Assembly: GCA_021202155.1 (NCBI GenBank)
Contig: JAJQDP010000031.1
Coordinates: forward strand, 1 to 36,924
Direction of reading: 5' to 3'
Origin: Oscillospiraceae bacterium
GTDB lineage: Bacteria; Bacillota; Clostridia; Oscillospirales; Ruminococcaceae
DNA length: 36,924 nt
Under the pieces are notes generated by a model, which saw only the letters and a program-made list of their open reading frames with translations, did no database searches and had not been told where the DNA came from. Shown in pieces: positions 6,697 through 22,666 of this stretch. Positions within the stretch are counted from its first letter, which is position 1. Each line of letters begins with the position of its first letter. Position numbers and translations under genes: made by a program.

Positions 6697-6713
6697 CCTA
6701 CCATGTTGATAGG
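6697..6713 (+). promoter_or_regulatory. Operator CCTAC-N7-ATAGG at the cysK promoter
   Basis: A 17-bp imperfect dyad begins one base after the -10 box and spans the transcription start. The same pattern occurs at the tcdA promoter (14900) and the thiol-cluster promoter (15014). Its position fits a repressor. The dyad resembles sites of Rrf2-family regulators such as CymR and IscR, which is an inference. Confidence 0.6.
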
Positions 6714-6766: not shown

Positions 6767-7702
6767 ATGACAGTATACAACAGCATAACCGGCCTGGTAG
6801 GAGGAACCCCGCTCCTCAGACTCAGTAACCTTTTGAAGGCAGACAACTACTACGCTGATATTCTTGCAAAGCTCGAATATCTGAACCCCGCAGGAAGCGT
6901 CAAGGACAGAATTGCCAAGGCGATGATTGACACCGCAGAAGAAAATGGTGATTTGAAAGAAGGCTCGGTAATTATTGAACCTACGAGCGGCAATACGGGA
7001 ATCGGTCTTGCGGCGATTGCGGCATCCAAAGGCTACAGGATCATTCTTACTATGCCTGAGACAATGAGCGTTGAGAGAAGAAATCTCTTGAAAGCTTACG
7101 GCGCAGAACTTGTTCTGACAGAAGGCTCCAAGGGCATGAAGGGTGCTATTGCGAAAGCAAAAGAGCTTGCTGAAACAATTCCAAACAGCTATACTCCCGG
7201 TCAGTTTGTGAATCCCGCCAATCCGAAGGCTCACTTTGAGACCACAGGTCCGGAAATCTGGAATGATACTGACGGCAAGGTTGACATCTTCGTTGCGGGT
7301 GTTGGAACAGGCGGAACCGTAAGTGGCGTCGGAAAGTATCTCAAGAGCAGGAATCCGGACGTTAAGATAGTCGCAGTTGAACCGGCAGGCTCTCCTGTCT
7401 TGTCAACAGGCGTTGCCGGCTCACACAAGCTTCAGGGAATCGGTGCGGGCTTTGTGCCGGACACTCTTGACACAAGTATATATGACGAGATTATTACCAT
7501 CAAGGATGAAGAAGCATTCGACACAGGCAGGAAGCTTGCAAAAGTAGAAGGACTCTTGGTCGGAATCACATCTGGAGCCGCAGTTTATGCCGCTTCTATT
7601 CTTGCGAAGCGTCCCGAAAACGAAGGCAAGATAATAGTTGCACTTCTACCAGACACAGGTGACAGGTATTTGTCAACACCGATGTTTGCAGAGCAGAATT
7701 AA
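6767..7702 (+). CDS. cysK: Cysteine synthase A (O-acetylserine sulfhydrylase)
   Basis: A 311-residue PLP enzyme of usual CysK length that makes cysteine from O-acetylserine and sulfide. The PLP lysine is K46 in [11 protein letters not shown]. The substrate loop [10 protein letters not shown], the phosphate-binding [15 protein letters not shown] and 'GITSGAA' near the end are all intact. The ribosome site AAGGAGG is well placed. It is followed after 33 bp by a second PLP sulfur enzyme, so the two form an operon. A promoter with a 17-bp dyad operator suggests control by sulfur or cysteine state. Confidence 0.97.
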
Positions 7703-12297: not shown

Positions 12298-13581
12298 TTA
12301 CTTTTCAACGACTGTAATCGTATTTTTCAGCATTCCCATCCAACAGGAATAGGTATATGTTCCTTCTTCAGTCGGCGTAAACTCTATCACAACCTCACCT
12401 GTTGTAAGCTTTACTTGCTGATTGAATGCCGACAGTACAATCTCGTTATTACAGCCGTTCAGATTGCTCTCGTCAACTTCTATCGTCCACACCACAGGGA
12501 TTCCTGCCGTGACCTGAATGTCATCGTAGCCATTTGAATGAAGCGTTGTGCTGACATACTGAACATCACCGTCAATCGTTGAAACTATTACATCATCTGA
12601 GCTTGTGCTTACCGATGCTGTAGTAAATCCAGTGAGTACAAGATTGTTCTGAAGCATAAAAATTCCCATCACAATCAGGAGAACTGAGCCGATCTGCAAC
12701 ATTCTGGTGCGCCAATGTGCCTTAAGCATTCCCGCCGCCATCCCAAAAACAAATACAAGCGGAATGGTTCCGAGGCAGAAAGAAAACATTGACAGCGCAC
12801 CTGCAATCATGCTTCCGCTTGCAATAGCGTATATCTGCATGGACTGGAGCGGTCCGCACGGCATGAATCCGTTTGCAAGCCCGACGGCGAAGGAGCTGTG
12901 TCTGCCAACACGCTGAATCTTCTGAGAAATCTTTGCGGATAGCTTCGGGAAAATTCGGACATGGAATTGAAATCCGCCGAGCATTCTTATCCCCATTACG
13001 AGCATAAATACTCCGGCTATGAGCCCAATAATTCCCCGAACCTGCAATGTAATTGCGGCTTTCTCTCCGATAAATCCAAGAACGCCGCCAATTACCGTAT
13101 AGCTTGTGAGTCTGCCCAAGTTATACAGAACGCTTCGCTTGAGGGGTTTTGTATTGCCTTCGGAGATGCTTTGGGCAAGGTTAAGCCCACCGCACATAGC
13201 GATGCAGTGAACGGAGGTGAGAAGCCCTATCAGAAACAGTGCGAAATAGCTCATCTGCTCCTCGCCGATGACAGGAATATTCTGAAACACCTCAAGCCAG
13301 CCCATATGCCTCGCTATGACATACAAAGCAAGTATGATTACAAGAATAGCAACAGTGTCTCCAAGCTTCTTACCTGTTTCGCTCACGCCGTAGCCCGTTT
13401 CCTCTATTGCGGTTTTTATTTTCGCTTCTGTACACGGAGATGAGTACTCGACGGTCAGTTGCCCCTTTCCACAATCGGCGGATGCGGATGATACTCCCTC
13501 GATAGCCGATACTGCGCCCTCGACCCTACATTCACAATTCCGGCAGGTCATTCCCGTGACATGAATAACCGATTTTTTCAT
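12298..13581 (-). CDS. HMA-TauE/SafE (DsbD-like)-cupredoxin fusion membrane protein
   Basis: A 427-residue three-part protein. Residues 3-65 form a heavy-metal-associated domain with the metal-binding CRNC (C13, C16). Residues 75-310 form a TauE/SafE-like membrane domain with about six helices, including the conserved GLLTSVHCIAMCGG (119-132) and NGFMPCGPLQSMQIYA (237-252), whose buried cysteines recall DsbD-type transporters. Residues about 340-427 form an extracytoplasmic cupredoxin-like domain with C377 and CWMGM (413-417) as likely copper ligands. The probable role is handling of copper or another thiophilic metal, or electron transfer across the membrane. A GAGGTG ribosome site lies 8 bases upstream. 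It is the last gene of a three-gene operon. Confidence 0.85.
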   Translation of the reverse strand: MKKSVIHVTGMTCRNCECRVEGAVSAIEGVSSASADCGKGQLTVEYSSPCTEAKIKTAIEETGYGVSETGKKLGDTVAILVIILALYVIARHMGWLEVFQNIPVIGEEQMSYFALFLIGLLTSVHCIAMCGGLNLAQSISEGNTKPLKRSVLYNLGRLTSYTVIGGVLGFIGEKAAITLQVRGIIGLIAGVFMLVMGIRMLGGFQFHVRIFPKLSAKISQKIQRVGRHSSFAVGLANGFMPCGPLQSMQIYAIASGSMIAGALSMFSFCLGTIPLVFVFGMAAGMLKAHWRTRMLQIGSVLLIVMGIFMLQNNLVLTGFTTASVSTSSDDVIVSTIDGDVQYVSTTLHSNGYDDIQVTAGIPVVWTIEVDESNLNGCNNEIVLSAFNQQVKLTTGEVVIEFTPTEEGTYTYSCWMGMLKNTITVVEK

Positions 13582-13593
13582 ATATCAGGCACC

Positions 13594-14085
13594 TCAGAAG
13601 TTCTTCCAGTTTGCAAAGCGATAAGCGTTATCGCTCAGAAATTCTGACGAAATTGTAATTACACTTTCCTCTTCGGAATAATCATCAGAGGTTATCGGGA
13701 CGGGATTGCATCCACCGCTTACTATGCCTATCTTGTCTGTTGAGAATTTACTTCCGCAATTCTGACAGACGAAATAGTCGCCCTCCTGCACGAAATAAGC
13801 ATATGGAGAACCGTTGCACACCTGACAGGTATTCATTGCAAGGCGAATTGTGCCGTCAGAAGCGAGAACCGCGAAAACCTCAACAGTTGTTCCTTCAACT
13901 GTCGTATCGTAATAACTGGCACTGGTGCTTATATCTTCTATGTGAATCTCGATTCCTGTCTCCGCTATGTCGGATGTACTTTCCTGTGTTTCTACAGACT
14001 CTGCTTCGGAAGAGCAACCGACCATAACAAACATCATAGCTACCACGATGACTCCTGTGAAGAATTTTGCTCTTATTTTGCTCAT
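13594..14085 (-). CDS. DUF2318-like Cys-rich lipoprotein
   Basis: A 163-residue lipoprotein. An N-terminal signal helix ends in the lipobox VMVGC with Cys24 as lipidation site, followed by an acidic Ser/Thr/Glu linker. The C-terminal half has CQVC (87-90), CQNCGSKF (107-113) and GGCNPVP (125-131), the pattern I associate with DUF2318 proteins near metal-transport genes. It probably binds a metal or an Fe-S centre outside the membrane. The ATG at 14085 is chosen because GAGG lies 8 bases upstream. An alternative ATG at 14106 overlaps the tcdA stop (ATGA). The HMA-TauE-cupredoxin gene begins 12 bp downstream, so the two probably work together. Confidence 0.8.
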   Translation of the reverse strand: MSKIRAKFFTGVIVVAMMFVMVGCSSEAESVETQESTSDIAETGIEIHIEDISTSASYYDTTVEGTTVEVFAVLASDGTIRLAMNTCQVCNGSPYAYFVQEGDYFVCQNCGSKFSTDKIGIVSGGCNPVPITSDDYSEEESVITISSEFLSDNAYRFANWKNF

Positions 14086-14102
14086 AATTAATGCCTCAAC
14101 TT

Positions 14103-14855
14103 TCATTTCGTTAAATCCTTTACAACTTCTCCTGCAAGAATCAGACCGGCTACAGACGGGACAAACGCGACGCTTCCCGGAATATCTCTCCTTACAGTAC
14201 ATTTGCGCTTTGTGTCAGGAGGGCAGATGCAGTGCGTCCGGCAACTGATTTCCATGTCATCAAGCGGGCGGATGCATTCTTCCGTGGAATACACCACTTT
14301 CAAAGCTCGTATTCCGCGCTTTCTGCACTCGTACCGCATCACTCTTGCAAGCGGGCAAACCTTAGTGTCATAAATATCTGCCACCTGAAATTTTGTGGGG
14401 TCAAGCTTGTTTCCTGCTCCCATACAACTGATGACCGGCACGCCGCACCTTTGCGCTTGCTCAATAATCCCGAGCTTCGCTGTAACGGTATCTACAGCAT
14501 CTATGACATAGGAATACTGCGAAAAATCAAATTCGCCTGCATTTTCGGGAAGATAAAAGCACTTCCTTACTTCCACTTCTGCATTGGGGTTGATTTCGAG
14601 TATCCGTTCCTTCATGGCATCCGCTTTATATTGACCGACTGTTTTTCTGGTTGCAATGATCTGCCTGTTTAAATTGGTAAGGCAAATCCTGTCATCATCA
14701 ATCAGTACGAAGTGACCGACCCCACTTCTGGCAAGTGCTTCTGCAGCATAACCACCGACGCCTCCGATGCCGAATACGGCAACACGGGATTCCGATAACC
14801 GCTCCATTCCGTCTTTTCCAAGCAGAAGCTCTGTTCTTGAAAACTGATTCAACAC
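14103..14855 (-). CDS. tcdA: tRNA threonylcarbamoyladenosine dehydratase (ThiF/MoeB/E1-like)
   Basis: A 250-residue E1-like enzyme. TcdA (CsdL/YgdL) uses ATP to cyclise t6A37 to ct6A in tRNAs that read ANN codons. The nucleotide-binding VFGIGGVGGYAAEALARSG, 'LIDDDRICLTNLNRQ', and the adenylation region 'YVIDAVDTVTAKLGIIEQA' are present. The GTG at 14855 is preferred: AGGAGGA lies 9 bases upstream, and it gives MLNQFSRTELLLG, the usual start of the family. Earlier in-frame starts up to 14900 have no ribosome site and would reach the operator. It heads an operon with the two metal-binding proteins, and its promoter carries the CCTAC-N7-GTAGG dyad shared with the sulfur genes. Confidence 0.9.
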   Translation of the reverse strand: MLNQFSRTELLLGKDGMERLSESRVAVFGIGGVGGYAAEALARSGVGHFVLIDDDRICLTNLNRQIIATRKTVGQYKADAMKERILEINPNAEVEVRKCFYLPENAGEFDFSQYSYVIDAVDTVTAKLGIIEQAQRCGVPVISCMGAGNKLDPTKFQVADIYDTKVCPLARVMRYECRKRGIRALKVVYSTEECIRPLDDMEISCRTHCICPPDTKRKCTVRRDIPGSVAFVPSVAGLILAGEVVKDLTK

Positions 14856-14899
14856 TATGTATTGTCCTCCTGTCAGATGCACCATTCTTATATTCATCA

Positions 14900-14916
14900 C
14901 CTACCATTTAAGTAGG
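14900..14916. promoter_or_regulatory. Operator CCTAC-N7-GTAGG at the tcdA promoter
   Basis: A perfect 5-bp dyad with a 7-bp centre lies just downstream of the minus-strand -10 box, at or just after the transcription start. It is the same 17-bp pattern as at cysK (6697) and at the thiol-cluster promoter (15014). Confidence 0.65.
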
Positions 14917-15013: not shown

Positions 15014-15030
15014 CCTATTGACATGGTAGG
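15014..15030. promoter_or_regulatory. Operator CCTAT-N7-GTAGG at the thiol-cluster promoter
   Basis: A 17-bp dyad covers the -35 box of the plus-strand promoter, so a bound regulator should block RNA polymerase. It belongs to the same motif family as 6697-6713 and 14900-14916. Confidence 0.65.
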
Positions 15031-15046
15031 TTATTGATGATATAAT
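15018..15046 (+). promoter_or_regulatory. Promoter of the esterase/ATP-grasp/GshA/amidohydrolase operon
   Basis: TTGACA (15018-15023), a 17-bp spacer and TATAAT (15041-15046). It is the only strong promoter seen upstream of the four close-packed genes. Confidence 0.88.
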
Positions 15047-15093
15047 AGTCCGCATTAGCATATTAAAAATTCAGGGTTCAAGTGAGGCATTGT

Positions 15094-15846
15094 ATGGTTT
15101 ACAAATTTGATTACTACTTTCCTGCCGCATCGCAGGTCAGACGGATTCATCTGTATCTCCCCGATGACTACGATTTCTGTGGCGAAAGATACCCGACGCT
15201 CTATATGTTTGATGGTCACAATCTGTTTTTCGATTTTGACGCCACATATGGCAAATCACTTGGGCTGAAGCAGTTTCTGGATCATTGGGGCAAAAAGCTC
15301 ATTGTAGTAGGGATTGAGTGTTCGAGCGACGATGTGCAAAGGTTGTATGAATATTGTCCGTATCATATATACAGCAAAATTTATGGCGAGGTGTGGGGAC
15401 GAGGTGACGATACCCTTCGTTGGATTGTTGAAGACCTGAAGCCCTACATAGACAGAACCTATCGGACATACCCGTTTCGGGAATCAACCGCAATCGCCGG
15501 CTACAGCAATGGTGGCATGACTGCGCTTTATTCGGTACTGCGTTACAACCGCTTCTTTTCAAAAGCGGCGGTGATCTCGCCCTCTCTGTTACCTGCAATG
15601 GAATCCTTTGATAAAGAGATCAGGGAAGACAGCCTGTCTCCGGATACCAAGGTGTTCTTTAGTTGGGGTACCGCAGAAGACACACCTGAGCGGGTGCAGA
15701 ATATCGCTGACAGCATCTGTTATCTGGAAGCGAAGCTTATGAAAAAACAGGTGCAAACGTATCTTTATTGTCAGCAAGGCGGAGTACACAATGAAGCAAG
15801 TTGGGAGATACAGGTTCCCACATGGATGCAATTTTTATGGCTGTAA
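15094..15846 (+). CDS. PF00756-type esterase (alpha/beta hydrolase)
   Basis: A 250-residue alpha/beta hydrolase of the family that includes S-formylglutathione hydrolase, enterochelin esterase and mycolyltransferases. The nucleophile is S138 in GYSNGG and the catalytic His is H232 in GGVHNEASW. The acid is probably in 'WGTAEDTPERV' (191-201). 'YPTLYMFDGHN' supplies the oxyanion region. No signal peptide is seen, so it should be cytoplasmic. The ATG at 15094 is chosen because GTGAGG lies 6 bases upstream. It is the first gene of an operon with a gamma-glutamylcysteine ligase. A thiol-ester hydrolase acting on conjugates of the product is one possibility, but the substrate is unknown. Confidence 0.85.
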   Translation: MVYKFDYYFPAASQVRRIHLYLPDDYDFCGERYPTLYMFDGHNLFFDFDATYGKSLGLKQFLDHWGKKLIVVGIECSSDDVQRLYEYCPYHIYSKIYGEVWGRGDDTLRWIVEDLKPYIDRTYRTYPFRESTAIAGYSNGGMTALYSVLRYNRFFSKAAVISPSLLPAMESFDKEIREDSLSPDTKVFFSWGTAEDTPERVQNIADSICYLEAKLMKKQVQTYLYCQQGGVHNEASWEIQVPTWMQFLWL

Positions 15847-15859
15847 GGAGTTGAAACAC

Positions 15860-17056
15860 ATGAATGTAATTTTTATCTCGCCCAATTTTCCGTCGCATTT
15901 CTACAATTTCTGTGACCGCCTGAAAGCTCTCGGGGCAAATGTGTTCGGAATCGGCGATTGTCCATGGAACGACCTCAGCGACAACTGCCACAATTCTTTG
16001 ACTGACTATTACTATCTGCCCAGTCTGGAGAGATATGATGATGTTTACCGTGCAGTAGCCTTTTACATATCCAAGTATGGTCGGATAGACTATATCGAAA
16101 GTCAGAATGAATATTGGTTGGAGCTTGAAGCACGACTGCGTGCTGATTTCAACGTCCGCTCCGGCTATCTGCCGGATAAGCTCGAAGACGTCAAGCTAAA
16201 GTCACGGATGAAGGCGGGATATTCAAGAGCCGGCGTCAGAACAGCGAGATATGTTCTGGCAGATTGTGCAGATATATGCCGACAGTTCGTTTCTCAGGTG
16301 GGCTATCCTGTAATCGTCAAACCGGACAATGGTGTGGGCGCGGCGAACACGTGGAAGCTCAGTTCCGATGATGAGCTTGAGAGGTTTATCTCCGGCAAGC
16401 CTGAACAGCCGTACATTATGGAGGAGTTTGTACCCGGTCATATCGAAACATTTGACGGAATCACCGACAGCAGAGGCAATATCCTGTTCTGTTCAGGTCA
16501 GGTCATGGCTGTCACACCGCTGGATATGCTCCTTGGTAACGGAGAAAACGTGAGTTATACTCAAAATGTTCAGCAGACAGATCTGAGTGAGATAGGACCA
16601 CGGGTAGTTGCCGCTTTTGGGTTACACAACCGATTCTTTCATTTTGAATTTTTCCGTCTGGATGTTGATAAGCCGGGGTTAGGAAACAAGGGAGACATTG
16701 TCGGACTCGAAGTGAATATGCGTGCACCGGGCGGATATATTCCGGACAAAATGAACTATGCTTATAATGTAGACGTTTATCAGATATGGGCTGAAAGCCT
16801 TATGTTTGATGAAAATCGCTCCTTCCCGGAATACCATTTTCAGTCCTATGTGACTCACTTCGCACAAAGTGACAAGGAAAGCTATGAGCATTCCCGGGAC
16901 GAAGTATTTGGCAGGTACGGAGAAAAAATACTTTTGGAGAACGCACCGCCATCATCCATCTCCGGCGGCATGGGCAGCCACGTTTATCTTATTCGCGCAG
17001 ATTCGACAGATGAGATATGGGAACAGGCGGAATTTATACTTTCCCATAAAACCTGA
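15860..17056 (+). CDS. ATP-grasp carboxylate-amine ligase of unknown substrate
   Basis: A 398-residue ATP-grasp protein. An N-terminal Rossmann-like pre-ATP-grasp domain (1-105) begins MNVIFISPNFPSHF. ATP-binding strands follow: VGYPVIVKPDNGVGAANTW (147-165; K154 and the glycine-rich loop) and PYIMEEFVPG (184-193). The metal-binding end is 'FHFEFFRL' and 'VGLEVNMRAPGGYIPD' (Glu and Asn ligands). Such enzymes join a carboxylate, through an acyl-phosphate, to an amine. The ATG at 15860 has AAGGAG upstream and starts 13 bp after the esterase stop. It is not of the GshB or GshF sequence type, yet sits next to gshA, so it may ligate gamma-Glu-Cys or a related acid. Confidence 0.85.
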   Translation: MNVIFISPNFPSHFYNFCDRLKALGANVFGIGDCPWNDLSDNCHNSLTDYYYLPSLERYDDVYRAVAFYISKYGRIDYIESQNEYWLELEARLRADFNVRSGYLPDKLEDVKLKSRMKAGYSRAGVRTARYVLADCADICRQFVSQVGYPVIVKPDNGVGAANTWKLSSDDELERFISGKPEQPYIMEEFVPGHIETFDGITDSRGNILFCSGQVMAVTPLDMLLGNGENVSYTQNVQQTDLSEIGPRVVAAFGLHNRFFHFEFFRLDVDKPGLGNKGDIVGLEVNMRAPGGYIPDKMNYAYNVDVYQIWAESLMFDENRSFPEYHFQSYVTHFAQSDKESYEHSRDEVFGRYGEKILLENAPPSSISGGMGSHVYLIRADSTDEIWEQAEFILSHKT

Positions 17057-17082
17057 ACAGTCATGAAAGGAATGACACCGAA

Positions 17083-18363
17083 ATGCTACACATTGACACA
17101 CCGGAACTACGCAAGCTATTGCTCTCTGGTAATTTTGGACTGGAGAAAGAAGGTCTGCGGGTGGACGAGAACGGATTCATGGCTCACACGAAGCACCCTT
17201 TTCCGGGTAACAAGCATATAGTCAGAGACTTCTGTGAAAATCAGACCGAAATAAACACACCCGTCTGCGTTGGCTATCATGCCGCAGTTGAAAGCCTTAA
17301 GGAATACACCCGTGAAATTCACAGAACCCTGGCTTCGCTTGAGACCGGGGAGTATCTCTGGTCATTCTCCAATCCATCGTATATTCGGAATGAAGATGAC
17401 ATACCTGTGGCGCAATTCGGCGGAGTAGAATCCTCCAAAACATCCTATCGTGATTATTTGTCGCATCGATATGGGCGGTATAAGATGGCGTTTTCCGGCA
17501 TACATGTAAATTACTCTTTTAACGAAGAACTTCTGAGGGCAGATTTTCAGCGCGGTGGATTTGAAAGCTTCACGGAATATAAAAATGATCTTTACCTGAT
17601 GCTGGCTCGCAGAGTTGTAGCCTATGGCTGGATTCTGGTATCAATAACAGCGGCAAGCCCCCTGCTCGATAGCTCCTATGTGGAAAAGAATGTATTCGAT
17701 GGCGATGTCTTTCAAGGGCTTGCTTCCGTTCGATGCAGTGAGCTTGGATACTGGAATGCTTTTGTGCCAATTTTCGATTATTCGAATATTTCTGCCTATA
17801 CAGAAAGCATCCGCAGATATGTTCGTGATGGCTGGCTGATGGCTCCGACGGAGCTGTACTATCCTGTACGCCTGAAACCGGTCGGACTGAACCGACTTGA
17901 AACGCTTGAAGCAAACGGCGTTGATCACATTGAGCTTCGTATGTTTGACCTCAATCCTCTGGTTTATGCCGGTGTGGAGGAAAAGGATGTTGCGTTCGCC
18001 GAATTACTGCTCGGTTGGCTCGCCTCCACTCCGGATCAGGATCTGTCCGAAAAGGATCAGATACAGGCGGTGCAAAATTTCAAGAATGCGGCGCATTATG
18101 ACCTGAAAACCGTAAATCTTGTAACGCCTGCGGGTGAATTTTTCTCCATTGCTCATGCCGCACGGAATCTTATAGGCTTTATGAGAGATTTTTACTGCGA
18201 TTATCCGACCGAAGTACTCGAAATTCTGGATTTTGAGGAAGCAAAATTTATAGATGCCGAGAACCGCTACGCGTGGAAAATCCGTAAAGAATTTTCCGGC
18301 GGCTTCGCAAAGAAGGGTCTTGAGCTTGCAAAAAAGCGAAGGGAGGAGTCTTTTTATGTGTGA
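17083..18363 (+). CDS. gshA: Glutamate-cysteine ligase (gamma-glutamylcysteine synthetase)
   Basis: A 426-residue enzyme resembling the GshA part of GshA/GshF: FGLEKEGLRV (18-27), 'HPFPGNKHIVRDFCENQTEINTP' (38-60) with the glutamate- and metal-binding residues, FSGIHVNYSF, and 'IELRMFDLNPL' near the C-terminal part. It couples glutamate and cysteine through the gamma-carboxyl with ATP. It lacks the C-terminal ATP-grasp domain of bifunctional GshF, and no gshB is in the window. It lies 26 bp after the ATP-grasp gene and overlaps the amidohydrolase gene by 8 bp. Stand-alone gshA next to a non-GshB ligase argues for a product other than glutathione. Confidence 0.92.
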   Translation: MLHIDTPELRKLLLSGNFGLEKEGLRVDENGFMAHTKHPFPGNKHIVRDFCENQTEINTPVCVGYHAAVESLKEYTREIHRTLASLETGEYLWSFSNPSYIRNEDDIPVAQFGGVESSKTSYRDYLSHRYGRYKMAFSGIHVNYSFNEELLRADFQRGGFESFTEYKNDLYLMLARRVVAYGWILVSITAASPLLDSSYVEKNVFDGDVFQGLASVRCSELGYWNAFVPIFDYSNISAYTESIRRYVRDGWLMAPTELYYPVRLKPVGLNRLETLEANGVDHIELRMFDLNPLVYAGVEEKDVAFAELLLGWLASTPDQDLSEKDQIQAVQNFKNAAHYDLKTVNLVTPAGEFFSIAHAARNLIGFMRDFYCDYPTEVLEILDFEEAKFIDAENRYAWKIRKEFSGGFAKKGLELAKKRREESFYV

Positions 18364-19129
18364 GCTGTTCGGCGTTAGTGCCGCAACACATATTGATGTG
18401 ACTGACCTGCTCAGGGAATTCTTCTCGCACAGTGTGCGCCATCCGAACGGTTGGGGACTTGCGACCTTTTATGGAAATTCAACCTCGCTCGAAAAGGAGC
18501 CGGTTACTGCGGCAGACAGTGAATACCTCAGGCACAGGTTGTCACACAAAGTCGAAATCCGCGCCATGATAGCACATATCCGAAAAGCGACGGTCGGTAC
18601 AATGGACTATGAGAACTGCCATCCTTTTGTACTGAGGGATTCAAGCCAACGCTGCTGGACATTTGCACACAACGGAACTATGTTTGACTGCCCGATGCTG
18701 GACGGATATTATCATGTGCAGGAGGGCGGAACAGACTCGGAGCGGGTTCTTTATTGCTTTGTGGACAATATAAACAAAGCGATTACTGCCGCCGGACGGG
18801 AGCTGACAGAAGCGGAGAGGTTTTCTTTGATAGATAAGCTTGTCTGCCGGGTGACGCCGGGCAACAAAATGAATTTTCTTCTTAGCGACAGCGAGTACAT
18901 ATACGTCCACACAAATTACGCAAATTCGCTTTATTACTTGCATACACAGGGCGGTACGCTGTTTGCTACGGTGCCGTTAGGTCATCACAGCTGGGAGCCG
19001 ATGCCATTTACAACGCTGTGTGTCTATCAGGATGGGAATCTGGTCTACACCGGCACTTGCCATGGCAACGAATATATTGATAATATTTCGGACACCCGCT
19101 ATCTGTTTCTGGATTACTCTGCGCTGTGA
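18356..19129 (+). CDS. Class II glutamine amidotransferase-like Ntn hydrolase (EgtC/YafJ family)
   Basis: A 257-residue Ntn hydrolase of the GATase type. Cys2 (MCELFGVSA) becomes the N-terminal nucleophile after Met removal. Supporting motifs are NGWGLATFYG (31-40), AHIRKAT (73-79), 'ENCHPF' and FAHNG (103-107) for the oxyanion and glutamate pocket. In ergothioneine synthesis the relative EgtC removes gamma-glutamate from a gamma-Glu-Cys adduct. No synthase domain is attached, so it probably acts as a free amidohydrolase. The ATG at 18356 overlaps the gshA end and has GGGAGGA 8 bases upstream, so it is translationally coupled to gshA. This pairing recalls EgtA-EgtC, but egtB and egtD are absent. 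Confidence 0.88.
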   Translation: MCELFGVSAATHIDVTDLLREFFSHSVRHPNGWGLATFYGNSTSLEKEPVTAADSEYLRHRLSHKVEIRAMIAHIRKATVGTMDYENCHPFVLRDSSQRCWTFAHNGTMFDCPMLDGYYHVQEGGTDSERVLYCFVDNINKAITAAGRELTEAERFSLIDKLVCRVTPGNKMNFLLSDSEYIYVHTNYANSLYYLHTQGGTLFATVPLGHHSWEPMPFTTLCVYQDGNLVYTGTCHGNEYIDNISDTRYLFLDYSAL

Positions 19130-21021: not shown

Positions 21022-21273
21022 ATGGAAATAACTTATCATCTTACAGCTTGTCAAGACATCCGTTGCTTCTGTGTTAGTGAAGGGGATTTGATTCTCCAAA
21101 TTTCAAAATGGGGTGACAAAAATGACCGCCGTAATATATGCGAGGTATTCATCAGACAATCAGCGGGAGGAATCCATCGAGGGACAAATTCGGGAGTGTA
21201 CAGCGTTTGCAGAAAAGAACGGGATAACAATTCTTCGGCATTACATCGACCGAGCGTTTTCTGCAAAGACTGA
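21022..21273 (+). CDS. Possible small leader ORF overlapping the recombinase start (unrecognised)
   Basis: ATG at 21022 follows AAGGAGG with good spacing. The first ~35 residues ('MEITYHLTACQDIRC', 'FCVSEGDLILQISKWGDKN') look protein-like. The remaining frame runs 150 bp into the recombinase gene and is probably not meaningful, so a true stop may have been lost. A related 'FCVSEG' stretch occurs on the minus strand near 20130, and both lie in copies of CTGTGTTAGTGA-type sequence. Function unknown. Confidence 0.3.
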   Translation: MEITYHLTACQDIRCFCVSEGDLILQISKWGDKNDRRNICEVFIRQSAGGIHRGTNSGVYSVCRKERDNNSSALHRPSVFCKD

Positions 21274-22666
21274 CAACCGACCTGAGTTTCAGAACATGAT
21301 TAAGGACAGCGGCAAGAAGCTTTTTGATGCGATTCTTGTGTGGAAGCTTGACCGCTTTGGTCGGAATCGTTACGACAGTGCGAGATATAAAGCGACGTTG
21401 AAGAAGAATGGTGTTAAGGTTGTATCCGCTACTGAAAATATATCTGATGGTGCAGAAGGCATCTTGCTTGAATCAATGCTTGAGGGAATGGCAGAGTATT
21501 ACTCTGCGGATTTGTCCGAGAAAGTAATCCGGGGCATGACCGAGAACGCTCTCAAGTGCAAGTATAATGGCGGTGGTCTCACTCTTGGTTATATGATTGA
21601 CAATGAGCAGTATTTTCAGCCTGATCCAATAACTGCCCCATTCGTCTTGGAGGCTTTCAAGCTTTATGACGAAGGTTCAACTATGACGGAGATTCGTGAC
21701 ATACTTAATGAGCGAGGTGTTAGAAATACTAAGGGACAGCTGATGACCTTCGGAAGTGTTCAACATTTACTCAGTAACCGTCGGTACATAGGCGAATACC
21801 AATACAGGGACATCATAATACCGGATGGTATTCCCGCACTTGTCCCCAAAGACTTGTTTGACAGAGTTCAGCAGAAACTTGCCAAAAACAAGAAAGCACC
21901 AGCAAGACACAAGGCGGAGGACGATTATCTTCTCACAACAAAGTTATTCTGCGGCTATTGCGGTGCATACCTCTGCGGAGAAAGCGGAACAAGCAGGACG
22001 GGTATGGTTCACCATTACTACAAGTGTTCTTCCGTCAAAAAGAAACGTAAAGGGTGCCACAAGAAACCCGTCAGAAAAATTTGGATTGAGGATTTAGTTG
22101 TTGACGCAACTATGAAAATGGTAATGGACAATGCAACGATTAAAGCCATTGTCTCAATGCTAATGGATTTGCAAGACAGGGAGAATGTGAACATTCCCCT
22201 CTATGAGCAACAACTTAAAGAAACAGAAACTGCAATTCAAAATATCTTAAACGCTATCCAACAAGGCATTCTGACCAAGTCAACAAAGTCCCGTCTCGAA
22301 GAATCAGAGACGGCAAAAGAGAATTTAGAAGTCAAGATAGCCTGCGAAAAGTTAGCGAAGCCGAAGATAAGCAAGGAGTTCATGACATTTTGGCTTCATC
22401 GCTTCCGCAAGCTTGACGTCAGTCAGAAGTCTCATCGCAAGATGCTTGTTGACACCTTCGTCAATGCGATTTACCTGTACGACGACAAAATGCTCTTGAC
22501 TTTCAATTTCAAGGACGGGACAAAGACGATTACGTTTGATGATGTGAATAATGCCCGGAACAAGTATGGGATTGGTTCGGATTTGGATTGGAGAACTGCA
22601 CCACAGACAGCAACCTTCGGTTGCTGTCTGCTGAAGAAGCACCCTTTCGGGTGCTTCTTCAATTAA
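21122..22666 (+). CDS. Large serine recombinase (site-specific integrase/excisionase)
   Basis: About 514 residues in the resolvase/invertase-recombinase-zinc-ribbon order. The catalytic N-terminal domain has YARYSSDNQ (nucleophile Ser) and 'LVWKLDRFGRNRYDS'. The recombinase domain follows ('GGLTLGYMID', 'SNRRYIGEYQYRDIIIPDGI' by parts). The zinc-ribbon has CGYCG and later Cys residues (YYKCSSVKKKRKGC), and a coiled coil follows. It should integrate and excise a mobile element at att sites. ATG at 21122 has GGGGTG upstream; a GTG three codons earlier is an alternative. The last ~20 residues (from PQTATFGCCLL) are encoded by two perfect hairpins, so the original stop was probably replaced by repeat DNA. 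It is the only intact gene of the element. Confidence 0.93.
   Translation: MTAVIYARYSSDNQREESIEGQIRECTAFAEKNGITILRHYIDRAFSAKTDNRPEFQNMIKDSGKKLFDAILVWKLDRFGRNRYDSARYKATLKKNGVKVVSATENISDGAEGILLESMLEGMAEYYSADLSEKVIRGMTENALKCKYNGGGLTLGYMIDNEQYFQPDPITAPFVLEAFKLYDEGSTMTEIRDILNERGVRNTKGQLMTFGSVQHLLSNRRYIGEYQYRDIIIPDGIPALVPKDLFDRVQQKLAKNKKAPARHKAEDDYLLTTKLFCGYCGAYLCGESGTSRTGMVHHYYKCSSVKKKRKGCHKKPVRKIWIEDLVVDATMKMVMDNATIKAIVSMLMDLQDRENVNIPLYEQQLKETETAIQNILNAIQQGILTKSTKSRLEESETAKENLEVKIACEKLAKPKISKEFMTFWLHRFRKLDVSQKSHRKMLVDTFVNAIYLYDDKMLLTFNFKDGTKTITFDDVNNARNKYGIGSDLDWRTAPQTATFGCCLLKKHPFGCFFN

Follow-up and report, generated by a model that had tools for sequence, protein, structure and literature searches.

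The contig JAJQDP010000031.1 of an Oscillospiraceae bacterium, a stretch of 36,924 nucleotides referred to here as the window, contains an operon of four genes that suggests a small-thiol pathway not described before. The operon encodes an esterase (EST), an ATP-grasp ligase, a stand-alone glutamate-cysteine ligase (GshA) and a class II amidohydrolase (GAT2), and we propose that it is a gamma-glutamylcysteine (gamma-Glu-Cys) cassette of the cysteine regulon. GshA would join Glu and Cys into gamma-Glu-Cys, the ATP-grasp ligase would activate the carboxylate of the cysteine, whose amine is now protected, and add an amine or amino acid X to give gamma-Glu-Cys-X, and GAT2, using Cys2 as nucleophile, would strip the gamma-glutamyl group to leave Cys-X; it could also return Cys from gamma-Glu-Cys. 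In this putative order of steps, gamma-Glu would be a removable amine cap. The esterase would assist the ATP-grasp step by removing or proofreading an ester or amide, and an Rrf2/CymR-like repressor acting at the dyad CCTAYN7RTAGG would control the operon together with cysteine genes. That GshA makes gamma-Glu-Cys and GAT2 acts on it, with cysteine controlling both, is, in our judgement, quite probable. The full route to Cys-X, a putative product, is proposed more tentatively, with somewhat less than an even chance of being right. The operon comprises the following features.

15094-15846, + strand: EST, alpha/beta esterase (PF00756), recognised by Pfam and motifs; a longer form starts at 15082
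15860-17056, + strand: ATP-grasp ligase of the L-amino-acid-ligase type, GshA-linked clade, recognised by profile, fold and tree
17083-18363, + strand: GshA, stand-alone glutamate-cysteine ligase (PF04262)
18356-19129, + strand: GAT2, class II (N-terminal nucleophile, Ntn) amidohydrolase of the YafJ/EgtC kind with a Met-Cys start
15018-15046, + strand: promoter read from the sequence, TTGACA at 15018-15023, a 17-bp spacer and TATAAT at 15041-15046
15014-15030: operator-like dyad CCTATTGACATGGTAGG, which overlaps the promoter's -35 and is kept in the close relative (locus L059)

When the coordinates were recomputed, the distances between the successive genes were 13, 26 and -8 bp, exactly those of the four-gene operon in the original prediction, which was made from the letters of the window. 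For EST, the ATG at 15094, with GAGG upstream, is a likelier start than the mechanically called GTG at 15082. Three of the proteins score well above their Pfam cut-offs, i.e. EST with PF00756 (65.3 bits, cut-off 22), GshA with PF04262 (197.6 bits, cut-off 27) and GAT2 with PF13230 GATase_4 (120 bits, cut-off 23). The ATP-grasp ligase has a weak score (PF02222, 22.3 bits, under the cut-off of 27) and is clear by profile and fold. GshA falls under the cut-offs of the NCBIfam equivalog models and, in the Pfam/NCBIfam comparison, is closest to the N-half of GshF.

To place the operon among its relatives, we used a set of 87 GshA loci, consisting of the best 80 of 488 relatives from a GshA-alignment scan of named genomes, the window and 10 further loci, minus four duplicates. 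As the original prediction had anticipated, the four families recur together: all are present in 10 of the 87 loci (in one of these, L081, a LysR gene is interposed and EST is split), and six further loci have a second esterase type (EST2) instead of EST. A chance neighbourhood of the four genes was ruled out, since the families co-occur and the gene spacing is conserved. The original prediction missed that GshA and GAT2 form a core, that C-S lyase genes are frequent nearby, and that a ligase resembling plant-type glutamate-cysteine ligase (GCL) can occupy the ATP-grasp slot.

The pair GshA and GAT2 is the commoner core of the cassette. GAT2 lies within 6 kb of GshA in 63 of the 87 loci, and in 54 of the 74 whose two flanks are each 1.5 kb or longer. 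Both were found in 64 loci; in 49 of these GAT2 comes after GshA in the same orientation, at a distance of -46 to 50 bp, and in nine more it closely precedes GshA. An order-level search, in which 394 genomes were scanned for GshA, GAT2 and the plant-GCL-like protein (hereafter GCS2-like ligase), found GshA of the window kind in 11 genomes, all of which also carry GAT2 (hypergeometric 1.8e-18, kinship ignored). GAT2 at E < 1e-40 is present in 15 genomes, a count that excludes two weak matches near 1e-10, and the GCS2-like ligase in nine. Fourteen of the 15 GAT2 genes are clustered with a PF04262, plant-GCL-like or PF04107 glutamate-cysteine ligase. Four of the 15 genomes have no PF04262. In G524, GAT2 adjoins a GCS2-like ligase; in G063 and G338 it adjoins a PF04107 ligase (the G063 gene was scored and the G338 gene is a near copy of it). 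In the fourth, G495, the GAT2 match has an internal stop codon and its neighbours are NifS/MnmA-like and ABC transporter genes, no ligase being visible.

Both core proteins keep the residues expected of their proposed activities. In GshA, F50, Y122, R123, L126, R217, Y223 and R286, which are the same in all 11 homologs aligned, correspond to F61, Y131, R132, L135, R235, Y241 and R330 of E. coli GshA, which we take to be the residues binding Glu and Cys. Because these substrate residues are retained, gamma-Glu-Cys is likely the GshA product and the first in the route. In GAT2, C2, R76, N106, G107 and D127 are invariant in 40 of 40 aligned homologs, picked from 68 found by excluding those with inner stops or cut ends. 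We take these to be the Cys2, Arg, Asn-Gly and Asp of a glutaminase site, in which Cys2 is the expected nucleophile. The start at 18356 is most likely, as it puts this invariant Cys at position 2. By profile, GAT2 matches YafJ-type 1te5 (1.9e-27) and EgtC 4zfj (9.1e-6), and it is presumably akin to Dug3. As GAT2 retains glutaminase residues and is kin to EgtC-type enzymes, it likely cleaves a gamma-glutamyl amide.

The ATP-grasp ligase is, as originally suggested, of a different type from the synthetases of the glutathione pathway. By sequence profile, its closest solved relative is RizA (9.2e-17). A Foldseek search with its model (predicted local distance difference test, pLDDT, 89.9) returned RizA, YwfE/BacD and BL00235 at the top, L-amino-acid ligases taking ranks 1-5 and 7. 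K154, E188, E189, E284, N286 and R288 are invariant in an alignment of 19. By fold and motifs the protein is of the L-amino-acid-ligase type, with a predicted dipeptide-forming activity. In the ATP-grasp tree, 21 GshA-linked rows (19 distinct and two duplicates) are split by a 100/100 branch from 21 unlinked copies, among which is a paralogue on contig 49 of the window's own genome; a fragment in L080, 3.4 kb from GshA, was excluded. Within the 22 loci that have an ATP-grasp near GshA, 19 distinct copies are on the same strand as GshA and no more than 2.3 kb from it. A search seeded with the ATP-grasp found 21 full-length places in 197 genomes of the family. Two are of the linked kind, both beside GshA (the window and G052, at 65% identity), and around the other 19, at 40-47% identity, the retrieved regions (some of them short) contain no GshA.

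Linked and unlinked ATP-grasps differ consistently at eight positions, three of which (289, 294 and 297) come directly after the NxR motif. Position 297 is Lys in 19 of 19 linked copies and Met in 20 of 21 others. From work on BacD, the loop after the NxR motif reportedly contacts the substrate, and the positive charge added by Lys297 would go well with an additional carboxylate on the substrate, as in gamma-Glu-Cys. Because the ATP-grasp forms its own GshA-linked clade and is of the amino-acid-ligase type, it would most simply couple the free carboxylate of gamma-Glu-Cys. Its pairing with GshA is recurrent: mapping the presence of the ATP-grasp onto the GshA tree takes 10 label changes, and supported branches force no fewer than six of them.

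The position of the ATP-grasp in the cassette appears exchangeable. Within 6 kb of GshA, an ATP-grasp is found in 22 of the 87 loci, a GCS2-like ligase in 15, both in none (Fisher p 0.0097, kinship ignored), and neither in 50. The GCS2-like ligase is a 460-amino-acid protein for which Pfam/NCBIfam yield little or nothing, and which matches plant GCL both by profile (2gwc, 8.9e-17) and by fold (model pLDDT 79.8). The product-setting ligase would then be either an ATP-grasp of the amino-acid-ligase type or a divergent glutamate-cysteine ligase of the plant type. A PF04262 GshA and a plant-GCL-like protein share one operon in L108 (= L061), L112, L113, L122, L128, L133, L142 and others. In L124 (34-2781), a PF04107 glutamate-cysteine ligase and a 445-amino-acid protein, perhaps a third kind of extender, precede GshA-GAT2; Pfam/NCBIfam and profile searches found no family and no solved relative for the latter. 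The order in L145 (3622-10054) is EST2, a lower-identity (40%) ATP-grasp, EST, a linked-type ATP-grasp, GshA and GAT2, an array that is possibly a trace of the origin of the linked ATP-grasp copy.

EST has GYSNG at Ser142 and a C-terminal histidine, His236, in HNEASW (numbering from GTG 15082). In the 87-locus set, EST occurs in 11 loci and EST2 in seven, all within the 22 ATP-grasp loci; L145 holds both, and EST2 stands alone in six. EST or EST2 also accompanies the ATP-grasp in many loci that lack GshA, usually as EST-EST2-ATP-grasp or ATP-grasp-EST2. Because the esterase families travel with the ATP-grasp where there is no GshA, the esterase appears to serve the ATP-grasp reaction and not GshA. 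The original idea that it hydrolyses thioesters of the thiol system does not sit with this distribution, and a role as S-formyl-thiol hydrolase was dropped as the leading explanation. The GshA-free module, present in part of the family (L034:8140-11183, contig 49 of the window's own genome, and L026-L044), may be a separate pathway.

The operon shares its dyad with cysteine genes. A single promoter with a "sulfur-type dyad" had been predicted, and the -35 indeed lies within a dyad, an intergenic motif conserved around cysteine genes, with the consensus CCTAYN7RTAGG. Two more copies are found in the window.

14900-14916: second copy, CCTACCATTTAAGTAGG, on the divergent side, which leads to thiF here and to a metB-like gene in the relative G500
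6697-6713: third copy, before cysK (6767-7702)

In 86 related loci there are 36 dyad sites, 36 of 36 intergenic by gene calls, as compared with 17 sites, two of them intergenic, for a reversed-pattern control. Thirty-one of the 36 (0 for the reversed control) are no more than 300 bp before families that recur beside GshA, including cysK, GAT2, GshA, GCS2, metB-like, LysR, Rrf2 and transporter genes; this figure is partly built in, because the scored families were picked for being frequent GshA neighbours, and the intergenic count is unaffected. The whole genome has seven dyads and nine reversed-control sites, i.e. no excess. Three of the seven are on this 37-kb contig (binomial 1.5e-4), before cysK, thiF and the operon. 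A fourth precedes another cysK on contig 22 of the same genome (L158:3361-4798), with a convergent Rrf2/CymR-like gene alongside, named by similarity to the scored Rrf2 family; no cysteine gene was recognised by eye at the remaining three. In Firmicutes, according to PMC3828012, the Rrf2 repressor CymR acts with CysK, and the likely CymR gene of C. acetobutylicum adjoins cysK. A CymR-like Rrf2 gene of C. perfringens is induced under cysteine limitation, as stated in PMC2940859. The Rrf2/CymR-like repressor coded beside the other cysK of the genome probably acts at the dyad, to which it is predicted to bind.

We next compared the cassette with known thiol pathways. As originally noted for the window, gshB, gshF and egtD are missing. 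In the genome, the glutathione synthetase domain of GshB (PF02955; controls positive in 10 of 14), EgtD (PF10017; 2 of 14), BshC (PF10079; 3 of 14) and GGT were not found, in a search that did not extend to EgtB or the mycothiol genes MshA-MshD, and the GshF-type ATP-grasp_6 domain (PF18419; controls positive in 1 of 14) was found in none of 12 GshA genomes. A glutathione synthetase elsewhere in the genome, which would have explained GshA by a complete glutathione pathway, was thus rejected on the negative PF02955 and PF18419 searches. The amidohydrolase had rightly been called EgtC-like; as a true EgtC it was rejected, scoring 50.5 bits with TIGR03442 against a cut-off of 218.65.

Likenesses and differences can be stated for five known systems. 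Ergothioneine synthesis (EgtA-EgtB-EgtC-EgtD-EgtE) likewise has a glutamate-cysteine ligase, a class II amidohydrolase removing gamma-Glu and a pyridoxal phosphate-dependent C-S lyase (found in relatives of the window), whereas here GshA is PF04262 and not EgtA, GAT2 is far under the EgtC model, EgtD is lacking, and the ATP-grasp is of amino-acid-ligase type. With the glutathione systems (GshA-GshB or GshF) the window shares a GshA near the GshF N-half that retains the E. coli substrate residues, but no GshB/GshF ATP-grasp was found and the amidohydrolase gene overlaps gshA. In the fungal DUG system (Dug2/Dug3), to which GAT2 is provisionally likened, a class II glutamine-amidotransferase-type protein is also linked to sulfur supply, whereas GAT2 adjoins a ligase making gamma-Glu-Cys. 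RizA, YwfE/BacD and BL00235 have the fold and ATP-grasp motifs of our ligase, with 14-18% identity over the fold alignment, but not its GshA operon or clade-specific residues. The CymR regulon of Firmicutes is alike in having an Rrf2 gene beside cysK and, as here, a dyad common to cysteine genes, but the set seen here includes gshA, GAT2 and GCS2-like genes, and the pairing of dyad and regulator is a prediction. The enzyme types are each known, as is the cap-and-trim logic, from ergothioneine. The open-licence literature yielded no precedent for bringing them together, for a ligase swapped between loci or for a cassette linked by the dyad; in its titles and abstract openings, there was no account of a cluster of GshA and a class II amidotransferase, with or without an ATP-grasp.

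Two C-S lyase families are frequent neighbours of GshA, a cystathionine gamma-lyase-like family (best model PRK07671, under its cut-off) and a PatB family (TIGR04350, 493 bits, cut-off 340). At least one of them is near GshA in 27 of the 87 loci and both in 24, leaving 60 with neither within 6 kb. In 20 of the 87 loci the cassette is immediately preceded by the PatB gene in the same orientation, with a gap of about 18-25 bp in 10 of them (distance from the end of the tblastn match). G500, of the same genus, is the nearest relative of the window (locus L059; proteins 96-98% identical over the matched parts), and has metB-like and PatB/MalY-like genes between thiF and the operon. The window is without both.

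14872-14876: junction at which 2,372 bp are absent from the window, compared with L059:5143-7516, which contains the metB-like and PatB/MalY-like genes

Loss in the window lineage is the simpler reading, because metB-like and PatB genes head the operon in L084, L086, L132 and L141, all with EST-ATP-grasp-GshA-GAT2; the alternative would be a gain in G500. The best PatB match elsewhere in the window's genome is 36% identical. A further neighbour is a glutathione S-transferase (GST)-like gene.

L104:12296-13534 and L105:7227-8465: GST-like gene, next to an SBP_bac_3 transporter protein

These two copies are 98.8% identical, match PF13410 (27.9 bits, cut-off 24.9) and stand two genes after GAT2; more homologous open reading frames follow a few genes beyond. 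The gene was noticed in two of the 87 loci, glutathione-using families not having been searched systematically. Its product, which we take to resemble glutathionyl-hydroquinone reductases, is perhaps a user of a small thiol, and the gene fits such a use.

Several findings weigh against the proposed route to Cys-X. No ATP-grasp lies within 6 kb of GshA in 65 of the 87 loci, so that GshA and GAT2 must have a use independent of it. Two ATP-grasps near GshA (L075 and L143, 2.7 and 5.2 kb away), grouped as unlinked before the tree was made, fall with the unlinked copies, and the ATP-grasp sample is biased, linked copies coming mostly from the GshA search and unlinked ones mostly from one genome family. 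Of the 74 loci flanked on each side by 1.5 kb or more, 20 have no GAT2 within 6 kb or the available flank, and these include all five Actinomycetota loci (L121, L127, L136, L140 and L147) and three ATP-grasp loci (L071, L078 and L080); these exceptions count against a strict GshA-GAT2 pairing. No dyad, with up to one mismatch, is found within 350 bp of the first EST/ATP-grasp gene in 12 of 19 ATP-grasp operons, one of these 12 (L107) having no upstream sequence to inspect and two of them (L132 and L141) having a perfect dyad before the metB-like gene heading the operon. If the regulator is CymR-like, the operon would be derepressed when cysteine is short, which suits a role in cysteine supply no less than the synthesis of a thiol that consumes cysteine. 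A core without extender in many loci and the tie to cysteine supply fit a store of gamma-Glu-Cys equally, and the frequent C-S lyase fits a route through S-conjugates.

The first of these alternatives is that the pathway ends at gamma-Glu-Cys, which would serve as a cysteine store or redox buffer of lower reactivity, loaded by GshA and unloaded by GAT2 as a one-protein counterpart of yeast Dug2/Dug3, with the ATP-grasp and esterase performing a side reaction in some lineages. The 50 loci with neither ligase near GshA and the link to cysteine supply through the dyad speak for it, and halobacteria have gamma-Glu-Cys as a main thiol, to go by the title of a reference in PMC7278568. It leaves unexplained why a GshA-linked ATP-grasp clade has its own residues beside the NxR motif and why the pairing recurs (10 label changes, at least six forced), and an overlapping pair of genes that make and cleave the same compound would be a futile cycle unless regulated. 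We regard such a store as unlikely, though worth keeping in view. Somewhat more doubtful is a route of sulfur transfer or through S-conjugates with gamma-glutamyl protection, running parallel to EgtA-EgtC-EgtE, in which gamma-Glu-Cys, or a gamma-glutamylated S-modified cysteine, would be joined to an acceptor, GAT2 would remove gamma-Glu and a PatB-type lyase would free the thiol. EgtC and EgtE carry out the gamma-Glu removal and C-S lyase steps of ergothioneine synthesis, according to PMC7278568. The PatB gene directly 5' of the cassette in 20 loci, its presence on the divergent side of the same operon in G500 and the GST-like gene near GshA-GAT2 in L104 and L105 would all fit. Against this, the window lacks both lyase genes here, 60 loci have neither within 6 kb, cysK and metB-like genes are ordinary cysteine genes whose shared regulation may be the whole reason for their presence, and no C-S bond-forming enzyme was recognised, no systematic search for one having been made.

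It is improbable that the ATP-grasp is simply an unrelated replacement of glutathione synthetase, X being Gly or a near analogue and GAT2 turning the tripeptide over. RizA/BacD-type enzymes, whose fold the ATP-grasp shares, do form peptide bonds. The lack of a GshB domain in the genome and of a GshF-type domain in the 12 GshA genomes would leave room for such a replacement, and the GST-like gene in L104 and L105 could be counted in its favour, though both loci are without ATP-grasp. However, in the genomes covered, members of the ATP-grasp family mostly occur without GshA (19 of the 21 full-length places), and glutathione-using genes were not sought systematically. Returning to the route to Cys-X, the original interpretation is partly supported by these comparisons, in which none of the refuting outcomes that it had named turned up. 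A broader version, which we put forward as speculative and rather less than evenly likely, is that Clostridia of the gut and rumen produce a series of small thiols, Cys-X or gamma-Glu-Cys-X, with a fixed GshA and gamma-glutamyl hydrolase and a swapped product-setting ligase, often under one cysteine-linked operator. If the ATP-grasp step is true, there would be an extra small-thiol route using gamma-Glu as a removable protecting group, and the ligase swap would predict species-specific products. To our knowledge, there is no agreed answer as to which small thiol most strict gut anaerobes use, and the cassette supplies a definite set of genes, a dyad that is conserved and, among gut and rumen bacteria, many relatives with which to address this question.

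Some minor observations concern the surroundings of the operon and of its relatives. A short cysteine-rich open reading frame (69-71 amino acids, family C23) lies near GshA in L067, L074, L076 and L082, and the L082 copy has no Pfam match. In the window, an HMA-DsbD_2 membrane protein and an FtrD-like protein are encoded beside thiF (12298-14202), and both families are near GshA in some loci. The GAT2 gene of G500 is split across the ends of two contigs. Serine recombinase genes lie downstream of the operon both in the window (21113-22666) and in G500 (L156:666-1598).

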